The notes below the pieces were generated by a model, which worked only from the letters and a program-made list of their open reading frames with translations, was not told where the DNA came from and made no database searches. Positions 17,650-63,123 of a DNA stretch of 64,000 nt are shown piece after piece (position 1 is the first letter of the stretch; each line of letters starts with the position of its first letter). The position numbers were made by a program, and so were the translations under genes. This DNA is from Rhizobium sp. ZPR4 (GTDB lineage: Bacteria > Pseudomonadota > Alphaproteobacteria > Rhizobiales > Rhizobiaceae): contig NZ_CP157968.1 of NCBI RefSeq assembly GCF_040215725.1, positions 496,001-560,000 on the forward strand. The letters are read 5' to 3'.

Positions 17650-17695
17650 TCTCTGTCCTTTCCGGGCATCCCCGCCCGGCTGATTGGATCGTGAT

Positions 17696-17923
17696 CGACG
17701 GCAGGTCTCCTGGCTTGCGGATCTCTGACGATCATCCGCCTTCCCGCAAGCTTGCTTGCAGTGGCATGGCTTTAAGCCTCGGGAGATAACTTAAAAAAGG
17801 TCACTCCCGGATGATCGGCAATCCGCTTACATTTGCGGGGGCAGCCACGGTCTAGGTCCCTCTTGGGTCTTCCTCACCGTGTTCCCTATTAATCCCCGCG
17901 GAGTCTTCCTTGGGGAACCGTCG
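17696..17923 (-). promoter_or_regulatory. Cobalamin (adenosylcobalamin) riboswitch
   Basis: On the minus strand the RNA contains the conserved B12-aptamer elements in order: GGGAACACGGTGAGG, then GGCTGCCCCCGCAA followed by GTAAGCGG, then GCCACTGCAAGC with GGGAAGGC, and finally the B12 box AGCCAGGAGACCTGCC (about 17700-17715). A closing P1 helix is visible as CGACGG (17918-17923) pairing with CCGTCG (17696-17701). Just downstream is a CCGGGC-ATCCCC-GCCCGG hairpin (about 17662-17679) adjoining AAAGGA, with no U-run, so translational control seems more likely than termination. It should shut off the BtuFCD-like transporter when cobalamin is abundant. Confidence 0.93.
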
Positions 17924-18017
17924 CGTTCAGTTATTCCGGACAGGGCCTTCTCGTCAAGAACGCTTGGATGGCAAAAAGAAAGAGAGCATCATGCTCATCG
18001 CCGAAGGCAGGGCGCGG

Positions 18018-56071: not shown

Positions 56072-56998
56072 GAATATTTCTCCCGATGACTAATAAGCCA
56101 TTCGAACTCGGATCGTGTCGGCCGCGCTGCTGTATCTACCGCTACGGCCACCGCCAGCCAAGCCGCTCGGAACAACTATCTCCAGATTTTTCATCGGGCT
56201 CACAGATTACATCGCGACGGCCGCGGAATGTGCTTTAACCTATGCGGTGCCACCCGATATAGAACCGCCCTCTTCAATGCACTGAAGGATGGCGGCCTGG
56301 CTTAACGACGCAAGAGGATGGATCGCACCCTCCCGCTCGACAGCCGGCCCCTGCCCTGTATGGCTTCATTCTCGCAAATCCCTTCTCCGTCTGCGGCGCT
56401 ATTCAAATGCAAATACTCCTTTCCCTACCCTGCCGAGGAAAAATGCTATGGGATGCCGAATTGATGGCACCAACGGCGAGCCTCGGACCACAGAAGCCAG
56501 CCGCTGGCGTTGGCAAGCAAAGCTCGAATCCGAACAATGCTCTGCTTTACCGCTCAGCGCGCCGACCATTCGAAAGAAGCGACTTCACCAGATCTTTTGA
56601 ACGACGGCAAACACAGCGCGGACTATCGATTGCCGCCGATTGGCCGCGACTTGCTCCGCCAGCATCTGGTTTGCAGCTGCCGGGTAAAGAGCCCTCCCCG
56701 TTTAGGACACGGCTGTCCGCACAAGCCAGAGCCCTGCGACATTTTCGCAAGCAGCTTGTTACGAATTCGGGATTGAGGGAAGATGCGCCGCGTACGCACT
56801 ACCTATCGCGGCTTTGCGAACGCTAGCCGCCCAACTATAAAAATCTCGTTAACCAAAACTTGCTGCAGGCTGCACCAACTCATATATGAACGTCGGCTTG
56901 GCGTGAGGGCGAACAAGCGGGGACAGATTTCTTTGCCATCCCGTCAAAATCACTTCACAATCAATCCGTAATGGAATTGTACGCAGAGGAACGATTTG
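56072..56998. other. Long non-coding stretch upstream of the replicon genes
   Basis: About 930 bp with only short, compositionally unconvincing frames on both strands (the longest about 140 codons at 56407, Arg/Pro-rich, no ribosome site). It may be degraded sequence marking the edge of the repABC core. Confidence 0.4.
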
Positions 56999-57475
56999 AT
57001 GGAAGAACCCTCGACAACCAATCGCGAGCCGATCGCGGCGACCGAGCTCGATGTCAAGAAGGCGACCGCGATCAACACGCTCTTGCTTCGCCCTATCGGT
57101 ATCCTGCCCGCCAAAGCCGGCGACCCTATCCGTCCTTTTGCGCTTGGCCTCTGGAATGAAATCCGTCCGCTTTTGAAACCTGACGTGCCGGTCATGTCTC
57201 TGCGTCGCTCCACCAGCGCGTTTCTGCATTCCAAGCGATATTATCATGCCTGCGCCCAGCCGGAATCCATGCGGCACGATCTTGCCGGCAATCCCGTCGA
57301 GCCGCTTTCGGCCGAAGATAGGCTTGCCGCACAGCAGCGCCTGATCACGCTCCGTCAAACGCAGGCCAAGGCTACGGTTCAACGCGACGAGCCGCCACCA
57401 CCGCCAGTCTTGAGCAAAGCAGAACTCATTCGAGCCTCTCTCCTGGGCCGGCGCTCCGATCGCGCCGCTCGCTGA
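56999..57475 (+). CDS. ProQ/FinO-domain RNA chaperone
   Basis: A 158-residue protein starting MEEPSTTN at 56999, with GAGGAACG before it. The central FinO/ProQ fold is recognisable at about 35-115. FALGLWNEIRPLLKPDVPVMSLRRSTSAFLHSKRYYHACAQ matches the family pattern of an early conserved helix, the R-rich helix and YxxA/YH. RHDLAGNPVEPLSAEDRLAAQQRL matches the R-x-DLxGNP-x-E-x-SxEHRxxA signature. The N-terminus is short and the C-terminal tail is Pro-rich and basic (PPPPPVLSKAELIRASLLGRRSDRAAR). FinO/ProQ proteins bind and stabilise structured antisense RNAs and sRNAs. It sits immediately upstream of parS-like sites and repABC, whose RepC is controlled by an antisense RNA. Confidence 0.85.
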   Translation: MEEPSTTNREPIAATELDVKKATAINTLLLRPIGILPAKAGDPIRPFALGLWNEIRPLLKPDVPVMSLRRSTSAFLHSKRYYHACAQPESMRHDLAGNPVEPLSAEDRLAAQQRLITLRQTQAKATVQRDEPPPPPVLSKAELIRASLLGRRSDRAAR

Positions 57476-57595
57476 TGCGCCTGGGCGCATCGCCTGTAAC
57501 CTTCTCACCTTTATTGTAATGACCACAATGGAAACGCTGCGCCTTTAGCGCGGTGACGCAACGCTGTGGTGGGCGGCAACTCCGGCGGCATCCCG

Positions 57596-57611
57596 GTAGT
57601 CCGCGGACTAC
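57596..57611. promoter_or_regulatory. parS-like palindrome 1
   Basis: GTAGTCCGCGGACTAC, a perfect 16-bp palindrome extended to 22 bp by flanking CCG/CGG (57593-57614). It lies between the ProQ/FinO gene and repA. It differs at one position per half from the repABC centromere pattern GTT-N4-GC-N4-AAC. Likely RepB-binding site. Confidence 0.65.
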
Positions 57612-57696
57612 CGGCCAATTGAGCTTCATGCGCGAAGCGTCATCCTTAGACGCTTAGACGCGATCACTCTAGAATCCTGCCCAGCCTCCAACGTGA

Positions 57697-57712
57697 GTGG
57701 TCCGCGGACTAC
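57697..57712. promoter_or_regulatory. parS-like palindrome 2
   Basis: GTGGTCCGCGGACTAC, one mismatch from perfect symmetry and sharing the GTCCGCGGAC core with sites 1 and 3. It is about 100 bp from site 1 and 240 bp before repA. Confidence 0.6.
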
Positions 57713-57865
57713 TCATCGCTTTATCCAGGAACATCAGGTGGAGCGAATCACTTTCGCGATCGGCGCTACTCAAATCGTCGGAATAGTAAAGCGGCCACAG
57801 ATCGAACGTGGCAGAGCGCTGTTGATGCGCAAAAACGCATCAAAAACTGCCTTTTATCTAAGCAT

Positions 57866-57938
57866 TTGTAAAACGGACACGAATCGGAGCATATTGTAAC
57901 TGCGTAGTTCAGTAGCATTCCGTCACAATTGCGCAGTT
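57866..57938 (+). promoter_or_regulatory. Candidate repA promoter and operator
   Basis: TTGTAA (57866-57871) and CATATT (57890-57895) are spaced 18 bp. Downstream, an inverted repeat AACTGCG (57898-57904) / CGCAGTT (57932-57938) straddles the expected start of transcription and ends 16 bp before the repA ATG. This suits autorepression by RepA/RepB. Confidence 0.45.
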
Positions 57939-57954
57939 AATTGGGAAAACAACC

Positions 57955-59148
57955 ATGCAGCCGAGCCTCGCGCTACAAGAAGATCAAGAGCACCTTCCAA
58001 CGCTTCTGGCAACAGATGCGCAGGAATTGTCTTATCAGCTCCAGCAACATCAGGCAAAGATCTTCCCGCCGCAGTCACAGAAAACTATGCGGATGTTTTC
58101 GCCGGCCGAAGCTGCAGCCTTCATCGGCATCGGTGAGGGTTATCTTCGCCAGATCGCAGCTGAAGGCCATGGGCCCGACCCGCTTTCCAATGGGCGTCGG
58201 CTTTATGCCGCCCAAGACATGGACCGCATCCGCAAGGTACTGGATGAGCGCAACGGGGCACCCAAATATGTTCCCTGGCGTAGAGGATCGGAAAAGCTCC
58301 AGATCGTCTCGGTTATGAATTTCAAGGGTGGCTCAGGCAAAACCACCACCGCCGCCCACCTCGCCCAGTATCTGGCGCTGAGGGGCTATCGCGTGCTGGC
58401 TATCGATCTCGATCCGCAGGCCTCCTTGTCTGCTCTTTTTGGCCATCAACCGGAACTTGATGTCGGCGAAAATGAAACGCTCTACGGCGCCATCCGCTAT
58501 GAAGAGCCGCGTCCGATCGCCGATATCGTCCGCTCGACCTATACGCCGAACCTGCATCTTATCCCCGGCAATCTCGAGCTCATGGAGTTCGAGCACGAAA
58601 CGCCGCGCGCAATGGCGGCAGGTCGCGCCGAGACGATGTTTTTTGCCCGCATTGGTGAGGTTCTGACCGAGATCGAAAGCTTCTACGATGTCGTCGTTAT
58701 CGACTGCCCACCGCAGCTGGGCTTCCTGACGATGTCTGCGCTCTGCGCCGCGACATCAATCCTTATCACCGTTCATCCGCAGATGCTCGACGTCATGTCC
58801 ATGTCGCAGTTTCTCACCATGACGAGCGAGCTTATGTCCGTGGTCGAGAATGCAGGCGGCCGTACCAGCTACGACTGGATGCGTTATCTCGTCACCCGTT
58901 TTGAGCCGAACGACGGACCGCAAAGTCAGATGACCGGCTTCATGCGAGCAATCTTCGGCAACCGCATGCTGCAGAATGCCATGGTCAAGTCGACGGCCGT
59001 TGCCGACGCCGGTGTCACCAAACAAACGCTTTATGAGGTCGATCGTGCCCAGTTCACCAGGGGTACCTACGACCGGGCTCTGGATTCGCTCAATCTCGTC
59101 AACAGCGAGATCGAGACGCATCTCCGCCTGACCTGGGGAAGGAAATAA
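57955..59148 (+). CDS. repA: Plasmid partitioning protein RepA (ParA-type ATPase)
   Basis: A 397-residue RepA of the repABC family. The N-terminal HTH region (about 45-100) has MFSPAEAAAFIGIGEGYLRQIAAEG. The deviant Walker A is FKGGSGKTTTAAHLA (KGGSGKTT at 124-131), followed by VLAIDLDPQASLSALFG (A') and VVVIDCPPQLGFLTMSAL (Walker B region). RepA ATPase segregates the plasmid by acting on RepB-parS complexes and represses the operon. It lies 4 bp upstream of repB. Confidence 0.96.
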   Translation: MQPSLALQEDQEHLPTLLATDAQELSYQLQQHQAKIFPPQSQKTMRMFSPAEAAAFIGIGEGYLRQIAAEGHGPDPLSNGRRLYAAQDMDRIRKVLDERNGAPKYVPWRRGSEKLQIVSVMNFKGGSGKTTTAAHLAQYLALRGYRVLAIDLDPQASLSALFGHQPELDVGENETLYGAIRYEEPRPIADIVRSTYTPNLHLIPGNLELMEFEHETPRAMAAGRAETMFFARIGEVLTEIESFYDVVVIDCPPQLGFLTMSALCAATSILITVHPQMLDVMSMSQFLTMTSELMSVVENAGGRTSYDWMRYLVTRFEPNDGPQSQMTGFMRAIFGNRMLQNAMVKSTAVADAGVTKQTLYEVDRAQFTRGTYDRALDSLNLVNSEIETHLRLTWGRK

Positions 59149-59152
59149 ATAG

Positions 59153-60154
59153 ATGGCGCGCAAAAACCTCCTTGAAATCTCGGCGCCGAGCACGGCGCGC
59201 ACGGATGCGCCGACAGCAAAGGACAATCGTCCGATTGCTGGCTTCCTGCCACAGGCGAGGGGTGCCGGTCCTGTAGGTGGCATTACGAGGACGCTCGGAA
59301 ACATCACGGAGAAGATGGAACGCGCCAGCGATCTCGAACGGCAGCTGGCAGAGGGACAAACGGTCGTCGACATCGATCCCGATGTCATTGACGGGTCCTT
59401 CGTTACCGATCGCCTCGAAATAGATCCGATTGAGCTTGGCCAGCTGGTTGAGCAGATACGCGAGCACGGCCAGCAGGTCCCGATCCTTGTGCGACCGCAT
59501 CCGGAGGCCAAGGGGCGCTTTCAGGTCGCCTACGGCCATCGGCGACTGGCGGCCACGAAGGAACTCGGCATTAAAGTGCGCGCGGTCGTGCGTCAGCTCA
59601 CGGATGACCAGCTGGTCGTCAGTCAGGGCCAGGAAAACAGCGCACGCACCAATCTCTCCTATGTTGAGCGAGCATTGTTCGCATTGCGCCTCGAGCAGCG
59701 TGGTTTTGGCCGCGATGTCATCATGGCTGCGCTTGGCGTCGACAAGGCAGCGCTTTCCAAGATGCTGATCGTCACGAGACAGGTGCCTCTGCCGCTTATC
59801 AGCGCGATCGGGCCGGCTCCCGAAATCGGCCGCAGGCGATGGCTAGAGCTGGGAGAGCGTCTTGAGAGCATTGCTTCCGAGCCGATCACTGCGGAGTTGT
59901 CCGCGGACAACTATCGGAAGATGTCGAGCGATGAGCGCTTCCAGCGTGCACTCATTCTGGCAATGGGCAAGCCCACTTCTGCCAAGAGTGTAGCAGCTCC
60001 CTCATCCATGACCGGAGTTCCAGTAACTTTTAAGCGAACACCCGCGCGCGCCACCTTTGTTTTCGACAGCAAGGCTGCGCCTGGTTTCGACGAGTTCGTG
60101 CAGGAGAGACTGCAATCTCTCTTCAACGAGTTTCAGCAAGGAAAGGAAACGTAA
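59153..60154 (+). CDS. repB: Plasmid partitioning protein RepB (ParB-type)
   Basis: A 333-residue RepB. It has an N-terminal RepA-interaction region, then the ParB/Sulfiredoxin-like domain (about 80-165; IDPIELGQLVEQIREHGQQVPILVRPHPEAKGRFQVAYGHRRLAATKELG). Box II is QGQENSARTNLSYVERALFA, followed by an HTH (RDVIMAALGVDKAALSKML). It binds parS and works with RepA. A parS-like palindrome lies inside its coding sequence at 59896-59911. Confidence 0.96.
   Translation: MARKNLLEISAPSTARTDAPTAKDNRPIAGFLPQARGAGPVGGITRTLGNITEKMERASDLERQLAEGQTVVDIDPDVIDGSFVTDRLEIDPIELGQLVEQIREHGQQVPILVRPHPEAKGRFQVAYGHRRLAATKELGIKVRAVVRQLTDDQLVVSQGQENSARTNLSYVERALFALRLEQRGFGRDVIMAALGVDKAALSKMLIVTRQVPLPLISAIGPAPEIGRRRWLELGERLESIASEPITAELSADNYRKMSSDERFQRALILAMGKPTSAKSVAAPSSMTGVPVTFKRTPARATFVFDSKAAPGFDEFVQERLQSLFNEFQQGKET
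59896..59911. promoter_or_regulatory. parS-like palindrome 3, inside repB
   Basis: GTTGTCCGCGGACAAC fits the repABC centromere pattern GTT-N4-GC-N4-AAC exactly and is palindromic over 18 bp (59895-59912). It shares the core of sites 1 and 2. An intragenic parS is less common than sites upstream of repA or downstream of repC. Confidence 0.7.
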
Positions 60155-60164
60155 CCCGCAAAAG

Positions 60165-60215
60165 AAAAAGGCCCCCAAACGACGTCGTCGTGGAAGCCCT
60201 TCTCTGATCTTAAGC
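60165..60215 (-). ncRNA. Counter-transcribed RNA (ctRNA, incompatibility RNA) of repABC
   Basis: In the repB-repC gap the minus strand has a promoter, TTGACT (60250-60245), 17-bp spacer, GATTCT (60227-60222). About 50 nt downstream is a terminator: GGCTTCC-ACGAC pairing with GTCGT-TTGGGGGCC, followed by TTTTTC. This is the position and design of the small antisense RNA that folds the repC leader into a repressive form and sets copy number and incompatibility. The 5' end is estimated from the promoter. Confidence 0.82.
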
Positions 60216-60309
60216 AAATCGAGAATCGCATTTCCCCGAATCACAGTCAAGAGTCTTTGACGCCGTTTTGGTGAGCTGTCTTCTTTTGCCACAACGTAGG
60301 TGAAAGAAA

Positions 60310-61623
60310 ATGGAAGCCGAATATGTGACGACGCCTTTTGGGCGGCGGCCGATGACGCTTGCCATGTTGATGGCTCAAAGACGAGCCGAGCATGGGAAGC
60401 CCATCAGGTCTGTCGACAAATGGAAGATTTATCGCGCGCTCTGTGAAGCCAAGCCTCTTCTCGGGGTGACGGACCGCGCACTTGCAGTTCTCAATGCACT
60501 CTTGAGCTTCTATCCGAAGAACGAGTTATCGGATGATGCCAACCTGATCGTGTTTCCTTCGAACGCGCAATTGTCCTTGCGCGCTCATGGGATGGCCGAG
60601 CAGACCATTCGCCGTCATCTGGCTGCGTTGATCGCTGCCGGGCTTCTTGTGCGCAGAGATAGCCCCAACGGCAAGCGTTATGCTCGTCGGAGCAGGGCAG
60701 GGGACCTCAATGAGGCCTATGGCTTCTCATTGGCGCCTCTTCTCTCGCGAGCGGAAGAGATCGAACATCTTGCCGCCCAGGTCGCAGCCGAGCGGCTTCA
60801 TATCCAGAGCCTGCGCGAGCGCATCAGCCTCCACAGACGCGATATTGCCAAACTGATCGAAACCGCCATTGCCGAGGCCGTGGAAGGCCCCTGGGAGGCC
60901 GTCTATGTGGCTTTCCGTGCATTGATCGACGGGCTTTCAAGATCCCCGACGGCAATGGAGCTGGAAGTTCTTCTCGATAAGCTCGGCCACCTACATGACG
61001 AAATCATCAACCAGTTGGAAACATACATAAAAACCACGAAATTAAGCGGCAATCCCTATCAAAATGAGCGGCACATACAGAATTCAGACTCCGAATCCTT
61101 CATTGAATCTGAAACCGGAGCCAAACAGCGAACAATACCGCTGAACCAATCTGCATTTCCGCGGACAACTCCAACAACCCCCAAAGCCCAAACATCTTCG
61201 GATACTATCCGACCAACACCTTCAACATCACATGGCTTTTGCACTGAAACTCGTAAGGAGATTCCAGCGGAACTGAAATCTTTCCCGCTGGATCTCATCC
61301 TCCGTGCTTGCCCGGACATCACGGCTTATGCACCGGCCGGCACTATCAGCAACTGGCGCGATCTGCTTGCAGCCACGATCATCGCCAAATCAACACTCGA
61401 TATTAGCCCTGGAGCCCATCAGGAGGCCTGCAGGGTCATGGGGACAGAAAATGCTGCCACTGTGATCGCCTGCATCCTCCAACGCGCCGCACACATCAAT
61501 TCTGCCGGTGGTTATCTCCGAGATCTGACCCGGCGAACGGAGAAGGGAGAATTTGCGATTGGTCCCATGCTTATGAGCCTTCTGCGGGCAAATATGACCA
61601 CGACAGCGCGAAAGGTGGCCTAG
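60310..61623 (+). CDS. repC: Replication initiator protein RepC
   Basis: A 437-residue RepC, the initiator unique to alphaproteobacterial repABC replicons. The N-terminal DNA-binding half is TTPFGRRPMTLAMLMAQRRAEHGKPI, LLGVTDRALAVLNALLSFYPKNELS, NAQLSLRAHGMAEQTIRRHLAALIAAGLLVRRDSPNGKRYARR. The second half has DISPGAHQEACRVMG and GGYLRDLTRRTEKGEF-type blocks. AGGTG lies 7-8 nt before the ATG. Expression is set by the ctRNA in the 155-bp leader. The replication origin of such replicons lies within repC. Confidence 0.96.
   Translation: MEAEYVTTPFGRRPMTLAMLMAQRRAEHGKPIRSVDKWKIYRALCEAKPLLGVTDRALAVLNALLSFYPKNELSDDANLIVFPSNAQLSLRAHGMAEQTIRRHLAALIAAGLLVRRDSPNGKRYARRSRAGDLNEAYGFSLAPLLSRAEEIEHLAAQVAAERLHIQSLRERISLHRRDIAKLIETAIAEAVEGPWEAVYVAFRALIDGLSRSPTAMELEVLLDKLGHLHDEIINQLETYIKTTKLSGNPYQNERHIQNSDSESFIESETGAKQRTIPLNQSAFPRTTPTTPKAQTSSDTIRPTPSTSHGFCTETRKEIPAELKSFPLDLILRACPDITAYAPAGTISNWRDLLAATIIAKSTLDISPGAHQEACRVMGTENAATVIACILQRAAHINSAGGYLRDLTRRTEKGEFAIGPMLMSLLRANMTTTARKVA
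61015..61145. other. AT-rich segment inside repC, candidate oriV region
   Basis: Within repC the composition drops sharply to AT-rich (ACATACATAAAAACCACGAA and following), unlike the rest of the gene. In studied repABC plasmids the origin lies in an AT-rich stretch in the middle of repC. A degenerate parS half (CCGCGGACAAC) follows at 61159-61169. Assignment is by analogy. Confidence 0.4.
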
Positions 61624-62115: not shown

Positions 62116-63123
62116 TCACTGCTGGTCGCAGATCGGGATCGGCTTGGCAGGCGGAACCGGATGGTCCTTCTTGTACTGAACGATGATCGGCTCGAGGGTT
62201 TCCTTGGGCCAGAACTTAGGCGTGCCGATTTCCTTCAGGCAGGAATCGTTCCAATACAGTCCGGATTGGGCCGGAGAGCGTCCCGCCGCAACGGCCTTGG
62301 CGATTGCCTTGATGTCTAAAGACTCCGGGTAGATATAGAGTGTCGTCGGATTGTCCTTGACCATGGAGATGATCTGATTGGCATCCGATGCCGCCCAGCT
62401 GGTGCAACCATCACTGCGGCCGCCGGCATATTCCACCAGCTTTCCGAGCGGAACATAGCCGTCCCGGTTGGCATAGGGGCTCTGCGGATCCTTCTTCATG
62501 CAGATGCCCGCAACCTTGGCGGCGGCATGTCCGCCGATCGCTCGCTGCCGCGCATTGGCGGTCTCGCCTTCACCGTCGAATTGGAGGAACGTGCGAAGGT
62601 AGGCGGCCTCCTTCGTTTGGGAGAGCTTGTAGTAACCCTTGAAGGTCGTCTTCGTCTCTTCGGTCACATAGGAGCCGCCCATCGTGAGGTTCGAGTCCAT
62701 CGCGTTGCCGAAGTTCTTCGCGCACATGCGTCCATTGCCGAAGTCGGCAACACCTTTGAGGTCGCGGCCGCTGCCGTGGCCCGATGAAACGACACGGAAG
62801 GTCTGTGTCGCCTCGCAGACGATATAGAAGCGACCCGCGGACTTGCCGTCATTTGGAGCGTTTGGACGGGTTGCGTCCATGGCGAAATAGCAGGGATTTT
62901 TGACCGTGCCTTCGCTCACTTTTCGCATGTAGAGCGCGCGGGCTCTTTGCAGGATCGGTTGGGCAATCTGCCCTTCACCGGTACCGACATAGGCTCCGAG
63001 CCAGGCCGGAATGTCCGGCTGCCGGGTCGCGGCCAGGGATTGCGATGTTGCGGGAATGACGAGGGCGAGGGAGCAAAGGCTGAGCATCTGGGGGACGCTT
63101 CGAAGGGCATATCTCAACCGCAC
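62116..63123 (-). CDS. Exported L,D-transpeptidase-like (YkuD_2 family) protein
   Basis: A 335-residue protein with signal peptide (MRLRYALRSVPQMLSLCSLALVIPATS). The catalytic-type core has NPCYFAMDATRP, GRFYIVCEATQTFRVVSSGHGSGR, FGNGRMCAKNFGNAMDSNLTMGGSYVT and GRSDGCTSWAASDA. The His/Ser-x-Gly-Cys arrangement (SDGC) is that of murein L,D-transpeptidase domains of the YkuD_2 type. Probably acts on peptidoglycan cross-links in the periplasm. Monocistronic. Confidence 0.75.
   Translation of the reverse strand: MRLRYALRSVPQMLSLCSLALVIPATSQSLAATRQPDIPAWLGAYVGTGEGQIAQPILQRARALYMRKVSEGTVKNPCYFAMDATRPNAPNDGKSAGRFYIVCEATQTFRVVSSGHGSGRDLKGVADFGNGRMCAKNFGNAMDSNLTMGGSYVTEETKTTFKGYYKLSQTKEAAYLRTFLQFDGEGETANARQRAIGGHAAAKVAGICMKKDPQSPYANRDGYVPLGKLVEYAGGRSDGCTSWAASDANQIISMVKDNPTTLYIYPESLDIKAIAKAVAAGRSPAQSGLYWNDSCLKEIGTPKFWPKETLEPIIVQYKKDHPVPPAKPIPICDQQ

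Follow-up and report, generated by a model that had tools for sequence, protein, structure and literature searches.

The FinO-domain gene and the repABC operon

We analysed a 64,000-nt stretch of DNA (the window, a term that here always means the whole stretch) of Rhizobium sp. ZPR4 (contig NZ_CP157968.1, positions 496,001 to 560,000), in which a gene encoding a FinO/ProQ-domain protein lies beside a repABC replication operon. The window is part of a 1.82-Mb contig (C2), a very large plasmid, of a 7.7-Mb genome assembled in 7 contigs. A gap of 479 bp separates the FinO gene from repA, and repA, repB and repC follow in this order and in the orientation of the FinO gene, with the counter-transcribed antisense RNA of repC (ctRNA) located between repB and repC (Table 1). 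An earlier note, made from the sequence alone, had described the FinO gene as lying 5′ of repABC, co-oriented and about 2.7 kb from the ctRNA; the distance from the FinO stop codon to the ctRNA is indeed 2.68 kb.

The 158-aa product of the gene matched Pfam family PF04352 (ProQ/FINO) with 49.7 bits (E = 4.2e-13, residues 39-124; cut-off 27), and no other PF04352 match occurs in the genome. Its scores fall far under the NCBIfam cut-offs for both the ProQ equivalog (NF003434, 20.8 bits against 127) and FinO (NF010317, 19.3 bits against 136), which places it in PF04352 outside the two named subfamilies; unlike chromosomal ProQ, it also has its gene on a repABC replicon. An AlphaFold model built from 42 aligned relatives (mean predicted local distance difference test score, pLDDT, 85.3) comprises a FinO core (residues ~11-125, with block means of 95-98 for residues 11-120), a proline-rich linker of low confidence and, at residues 140-155, a C-terminal helix that is likewise of low confidence in the model (51-67 for residues 131-158). 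When this model was searched with Foldseek, the top 26 matches were all FinO-family chains (probability 1.00, TM-score 0.51-0.67 by target length), while the next match had an E value of 2.1. These chains included FinO, RocC (alone and terminator-bound), a Legionella ProQ homologue and Neisseria NMB1681, the nearest solved structure being that of FinO (1dvo). The domain assignment made in the earlier note is thus supported by both profile and predicted fold, with FinO and RocC as the closest relatives in structure.

The protein also carries a conserved C-terminal motif, (S/T)KxExIRAxLLxR, which was matched as a pattern in 73 of the 80 family members surveyed below and recognised by eye in three others (L168, L177 and L191; L and G numbers are our handles for loci and genomes), giving 76 of 80. 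It is absent from L179, L181, L187 and L192, and was not found in the Ti-plasmid and ArdC-region members examined (L079-L082, L111 and L115). From these comparisons, the gene product appears to be a plasmid-borne FinO-family protein of a distinct alphaproteobacterial subfamily. A phage origin of the gene was considered and set aside: 26 stretches of the viral_contigs set fitted the search pattern and none was confirmed, and the phages set yielded none. A single PHROG match of the protein, at 27 bits, corresponds to a group annotated as function unknown.

The ctRNA consists of a strong hairpin followed by UUUUUCUUUU, which makes it a candidate ligand of the FinO protein. The 53-nt stretch containing it has a folding energy of -24.9 kcal/mol, with a z score of -4.4 relative to 200 shuffled sequences, in agreement with the strong ctRNA hairpin previously noted at 60165-60215. 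Both the ctRNA and the S-element of the repC leader are standard members of their Rfam families, as in the known ctRNA control of repABC replicons (RepE / incA / inc-alpha). In the same genome, five ctRNAs exceeded the gathering score, one on each of contigs C2 to C6, and a sixth, on C1, stayed below threshold.

Table 1. Position of the genes, RNA elements and sequence motifs in the window.
Feature	Position	Strand	Evidence or location
Promoter-like site TTGCCA-17-CACAAT	56933-56961	+	Scan; overlaps element GTCAAAATCACTTCACAATC (56943-56962)
FinO/ProQ-domain gene	56999-57475	+	Open reading frame; ATG at 56999, stop ends at 57475, 158 aa
parS-like palindrome GTAGTCCGCGGACTAC	57596-57611	.	FinO-repA gap
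Second parS-like palindrome GTGGTCCGCGGACTAC	57697-57712	.	FinO-repA gap
repA (ParA-type partition ATPase)	57955-59148	+	TIGR03453, 636.6 bits, above equivalog cut-off
repB (ParB-type partition protein)	59153-60154	+	TIGR03454, 359.5 bits, above equivalog cut-off
Third parS-like palindrome GTTGTCCGCGGACAAC	59896-59911	.	Within 3′ part of repB
ctRNA (ctRNA_p42d)	60203-60158	-	RF00489, 68.1 bits, gathering threshold
S-element in repC leader	60245-60312	+	RF00490, 56.8 bits, gathering threshold
repC (replication initiator)	60310-61623	+	NF040974, 513.3 bits, above equivalog cut-off
L,D-transpeptidase-like gene	62116-63123	-	Just beyond repC; YkuD_2, 28.5 bits, cut-off 27
Cobalamin riboswitch	17683-17937	-	Rfam, 99.3 bits

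Linkage between FinO-family genes and repABC replicons

A survey of one genome per species (GTDB) gave 134 matching stretches, 101 of which encode a relative of the protein, and the best 80 were kept. repABC genes were sought in flanks of up to 10 kb, some records being shorter than 10 kb on one side. Results showed repABC genes within this distance in 52 of the 80 loci (a full operon in 51, a RepC fragment only in L190), while 28 had no repABC in the available flank. In all 52 linked loci repABC lies 3′ of the FinO gene, either with FinO upstream of repA and co-oriented (20 loci, 19 of them at 315-517 bp from the open frame and L187 at 3.2 kb) or tail-to-tail with repC (32 loci, 10 overlapping and the others 0.2-6.4 kb apart). 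An additional RepC match was present 5′ of FinO in L193, L195, L098 and L099; L193 and L195 are linked loci from records named as Brucellaceae. At 75% identity the 80 FinO loci formed 25 clusters, of which 13 contain at least one linked locus; at 65% identity they formed 9, of which 4 do. The earlier note had called for a survey of repABC loci, and the association turned out to be conserved, as the replicon association of a FopA-like protein should be.

We also examined 60 genomes of the genus. PF04352 matched in 43 of them, at 46 places, and RepC in all 60, the RepC matches summing to 261 over the table. In the stretches available, repABC was located within 10 kb at 28 of the 46 FinO places, the window's own included, with FinO upstream of repA in 9 and tail-to-tail with repC in 19. 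By simple arithmetic that ignores relatedness, about 0.6 of the 46 places would be expected to lie this close to a RepC match by chance. At L066 and L071, FinO lies at a contig end and RepC at the opposite end, and counting both would raise the linked places to 30 of 46; L032 is a 4.5-kb contig that offers no basis for judging linkage. In the 13 surveyed genomes that have at most 7 contigs and a FinO match, FinO shares its contig with a RepC match without exception. Surveys of the family (199 genomes) and the class (385 genomes) each found a match in 13 genomes, our genome being in both. Twenty stretches were taken from these surveys, a selection in which not every match was included (those of three class genomes, for example, were left aside). 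In four of them repABC stood beside FinO: L101, which belongs to the same genus, and L098, L099 and L100, which come from other genera. On the basis of the 80-locus and 60-genome surveys, the neighbourhood of FinO and repABC exceeds chance.

Six contigs carried two RepC matches each, among the matches listed (G045:C2, G023:C2, G055:C6, G009:C7, G040:C5 and G016:C3). FinO was near only one RepC in five of them and near neither in G016. These contigs look like fused replicons.

A review from 2020 states that, of the alpha-rhizobia, R. leguminosarum bv. viciae alone has ProQ (PMC7143759; here and below, statements on cited articles refer to the consulted portions of their text). FinO/ProQ proteins are much wider among alpha-rhizobia than this review states.

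Linkage of this kind could in principle reflect nothing more than synteny in a small number of plasmid lineages, FinO and repABC being functionally unrelated. Of the 52 linked loci, 37 fall into two clusters (29 and 21 loci in size), and the gene order panC-FinO survives without repABC in L078 and L112. Nevertheless, linked members occur in 11 more clusters (or 10, leaving aside L190 with its RepC fragment), the linkage is present in a second taxonomic family, and L188 and L193 have a close repC-FinO pair despite differing RepA (distances of 0.09 and 0.11 versus 0.39). We regard this explanation as highly improbable.

Inheritance of the gene pair

On a tree of the FinO proteins, made with a quick method that left 29 of 76 inner branches open and includes several long rows, the three arrangements change 12 times, compared to 37 with shuffled labels. 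The arrangement with FinO upstream of repA forms one clade plus L187. Ten R. leguminosarum-type loci without adjacent repABC are nested inside a tail-to-tail clade, a position that reads as loss of the neighbouring repABC with retention of FinO; in two complete members of this type (G026 and G039), RepC is found elsewhere on FinO's contig. The median ratio of nonsynonymous to synonymous substitutions (dN/dS) of FinO was 0.12, 0.17 and 0.17 in three groups, the first at near-saturated dS, which denotes purifying selection. Broken copies were also seen, at L075 (9809-10161, in two frames next to repABC) and L040 (9751-10095, with an internal stop), and these indicate that the gene is dispensable in places.

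FinO distances correlated with those of RepC (r = 0.86), RepB (0.78) and RepA (0.71) across 53 representatives. With 9 representatives of all loci, the values were 0.87, 0.50 and 0.32, respectively. Once the Ochrobactrum-type loci were removed, they became 0.80, 0.81 and 0.74 (50 representatives), and the coarsest setting reversed the order (0.59, 0.74 and 0.67; 27 representatives). The genes of repABC operons are reported to recombine separately (PMC2783167). Taken together, these data establish a conserved, oriented and co-inherited linkage between FinO and repABC.

A possible role in replication control

Published accounts of repC control involve repression by RepA and RepB together with pairing of the ctRNA, which favours a terminator 5′ of repC (PMC6090056, PMC3155836). 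repC is thus set by the RepA, RepB and ctRNA of its own operon, and the elements for replication, partition and incompatibility are placed inside the operon itself (PMC6090056, PMC4492784), a scheme that differs from one with an additional protein; the consulted text of PMC6090056 contains no mention of RNA-binding, RNA chaperone or Hfq. We found no description of a link between repABC and FinO/ProQ in the literature searched, which left most subscription papers outside, in line with the earlier note, whose author knew of none. In the portions consulted, the letters FinO appear in PMC6315104 only inside the word FINOVI, and repABC in PMC7143759 only in a reference title.

Other plasmids offer precedents. 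FopA stabilises the Inc antisense RNA of the IncI-alpha plasmid pCol1B9 and anneals it (PMC9977716). Like the protein of the window, it is a plasmid-borne FinO-domain protein accompanied by an antisense RNA (Inc/repZ) that represses a replication initiator (PMC9977716). FopA, however, serves an IncI replicon with pseudoknot-dependent translation of repZ, whereas the window has a repABC replicon controlled through leader attenuation; reports of binding exist for FopA, while the window's protein is known from its sequence and was set against FopA by description. PcnR, another FinO-family repressor of copy number carried by its own plasmid, binds the rep leader of IncI2 plasmids independently of antisense RNA (PMC9977716), in contrast to the protein studied here, for which the data favour neither route. 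Finally, the FinO of F-like plasmids, which shares the domain (1dvo), also acts on a foreign copy-control RNA: Salmonella FinO binds RepX of pRSF1010, and the copy number of pRSF1010 is higher without FinO (PMC8136791). F-like FinO has a disordered N-terminal extension (PMC9977716), unlike the window's protein with its conserved C-terminal motif. As with FopA, a replication-control RNA and a FinO-domain gene are found here on one plasmid.

FinO domains are known to recognise 3′ ends of the terminator type. We favour, at a probability of roughly 45%, a role of the FinO-family RNA chaperone as an accessory replication-control gene of repABC that assists the ctRNA in repressing RepC. The FinO domain would grip the terminator hairpin and U-tail at the 3′ end of the ctRNA transcribed from the repB-repC gap, and binding would either stabilise the ctRNA or speed its pairing with the repC leader. 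Pairing would favour the terminator 5′ of repC and keep RepC low, and with little RepC the replicon would stay at about one copy per cell, in the way that FopA works through Inc/repZ on an IncI-alpha plasmid. By analogy with these systems, the arrangement suggests that the FinO protein helps the plasmid's antisense RNA to limit plasmid copying; we infer that the ctRNA is the ligand and that RepC and copy number are affected.

repABC is among the main replicon types found in the megaplasmids and chromids of rhizobia and agrobacteria. A widespread, oriented and co-inherited RNA-chaperone gene beside it would point to a protein factor that current accounts of ctRNA control lack. If this role is true, repABC replicons would join IncI plasmids as the second replicon class whose copy number is policed by FinO-family proteins, and the FinO gene would offer a direct genetic means of studying how five repABC replicons are kept in step within one cell.

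Several observations weigh against such a role. The p42d basic replicon (repABC, 86 bp upstream and 500 bp downstream) retains the parental stability and copy number, and its definition names no further gene (PMC3155836). Most surveyed repABC loci have no FinO neighbour, as seen from the 261 RepC matches against 46 FinO places in the genus and from the 2364 RepC against 233 FinO records in PLSDB. The R. leguminosarum-type clade, in which repABC is gone from FinO's side, still has a FinO dN/dS of 0.17, and the FinO gene of a linked locus (L075) is split. Preferential co-inheritance of FinO with RepC, which we considered, fails when the Ochrobactrum-type loci are dropped. In the predicted fold of the 53-nt stretch, the U-tail of the ctRNA partly pairs with bases 5′ of the hairpin, so that the fold gives no support for an accessible tail. 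The four other ctRNAs above the gathering score share the cell with that of the window. We also compared the ctRNAs of 51 linked loci (L190 left out) with those of 40 unlinked loci hand-chosen among the RepC matches listed, 6 of which fell outside the pattern. Tail length, T count and fold energy did not clearly differ between the 51 linked and the 34 remaining unlinked ctRNAs (P = 0.39, 0.35 and 0.06), and no FinO signature could be read in the linked ones. Median hairpin length was 30 in linked and 28.5 in unlinked loci (P = 0.0004), a difference to which we gave no weight because the loci group by replicon lineage and the pattern clipped some hairpins. Finally, the gene settings on Ti and pAt plasmids described below imply that FinO relatives may serve transfer.

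The protein could instead behave as PcnR does on IncI2 plasmids (PMC9977716), binding a stem-loop of the repB-repC leader (the large leader hairpin or the S-element) and repressing repC without the ctRNA. The leader has predicted structure (z = -2.25, with 5 of 200 shuffles folding equally well) and contains the S-element, and the present data do not separate leader from ctRNA as ligand. Yet the ctRNA offers a terminator-type 3′ end more plainly, if the preference of FinO domains is as we take it to be and as the RocC-terminator structure indicates, and repression through the leader alone seems to us decidedly unlikely.

A rather less unlikely alternative is a trans-acting, ProQ-like regulator of many or other RNAs, either chromosomal or the ctRNAs of other replicons, for which the side of repABC would simply be a stable place on large plasmids. 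Purifying selection on FinO where the local repABC is gone would fit this, as would the presence in this genome of a lone FinO gene alongside five ctRNAs that exceed the gathering score. Against it, linkage recurs in 13 of 25 clusters and in two arrangements, always with repABC 3′ of FinO, and the known plasmid-borne members of the family are described as narrow specialists (PMC9977716). It would be bolder, and we consider it improbable, to propose that a dedicated FinO chaperone was recruited several times by the repABC replicons of Rhizobiaceae and Brucellaceae, or has long been inherited with them, as an additional layer of control, and that in cells with several such replicons (here five ctRNAs and one FinO) a single plasmid-encoded FinO acts in trans on several ctRNAs, coupling the copy numbers of a multipartite genome; action in trans would explain why FinO is kept where the neighbouring repABC is gone.

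The protein might also be a fertility inhibitor in the manner of F-type FinO, regulating conjugation of its own or a co-resident plasmid and lying near repABC by backbone hitchhiking. On two Ti plasmids (L080 and L082), a FinO-family gene lies in the interval from traH to traM, separated from traH by a single small hypothetical gene. FinO homologues on pTiCFBP5499, pEHA105, pAtG3_79b and a plasmid of Rhizobium sp. ZX09 (L079, L081, L111 and L115) accompany genes for ParB-like proteins and for ArdC or zincin-like metallopeptidases, a setting that we take to be a conjugative leading region. Among the 233 PLSDB records with FinO, 139 are typed conjugative, but 88 are non-mobilizable, and the Ti and ArdC-type members examined do not have the C-terminal motif of 76 of the 80 repABC-type members. 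Moreover, contig C2 has no match to the type IV secretion system (T4SS) coupling protein (PF02534) or VirB4 (PF03135), a search that did not extend to relaxases, whereas matches to these families are present on C1, C4, C5 and C6. The window's protein, at 19.3 of 136 bits in NCBIfam, thus differs from F-type FinO also in residing on a contig that shows neither T4SS family of a conjugative plasmid. Control of its own transfer, that is, fertility inhibition in cis, is accordingly judged unlikely from these sequence searches, and the explanation as a whole, co-resident plasmids included, is also unlikely.

In L080 (9001-9333) and L082 (8971-9405), the FinO-family gene lies just 5′ of traM, annotated as transcriptional repressor TraM. 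A FinO gene at this place makes an RNA-level layer in the control of Ti transfer possible.

The proposal of the earlier note, that the protein tunes copy number or incompatibility through the ctRNA or the repC leader, is plausible by analogy. The protein family, the ctRNA, the arrangement, the conserved association and the precedents of FopA and PcnR speak for it; the absence of the gene beside most repABC loci, its retention without adjacent repABC and the Ti relatives among transfer genes speak against it. As judged from sequence comparison, the association is real, conserved and, as far as we found, undescribed, and the proposed function is credible.

Flanking elements

The promoter-like site upstream of the FinO gene is weak evidence taken alone, as the scanned region contained 2 such sites with 1.7 expected. 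The element that it overlaps (GTCAAAATCACTTCACAATC / GTCAAAATCnCTTCACAATC) was recognised 5′ of FinO genes in 64 of the 80 loci when up to 5 of 19 positions were allowed to differ; among 80 upstream regions that had been shuffled, the best fit had 7 mismatches. GTCAAAATCnCTTCACAATC is common to relatives from Rhizobium through Ochrobactrum and might be a promoter whose spacer contains an operator.

Palindromes around GTCCGCGGAC numbered three in the window, against 0.02 expected by chance. We assume GTTNNNNGCNNNNAAC to be the repABC parS consensus, and the palindromes are presumably parS sites on that account; the one inside repB agrees with the assumed consensus. Comparison of 5 of 20 sequences of the FinO-repA gap found it variable except for the parS-like palindromes and the repA promoter region. 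Another conserved RNA of the gap as ligand was provisionally set aside on this variability, no RNA-structure search having been made across the gap.

Counting the window itself, 9 loci that have its arrangement share the cluster of the L,D-transpeptidase-like gene. The window also contains a cobalamin riboswitch (Table 1).

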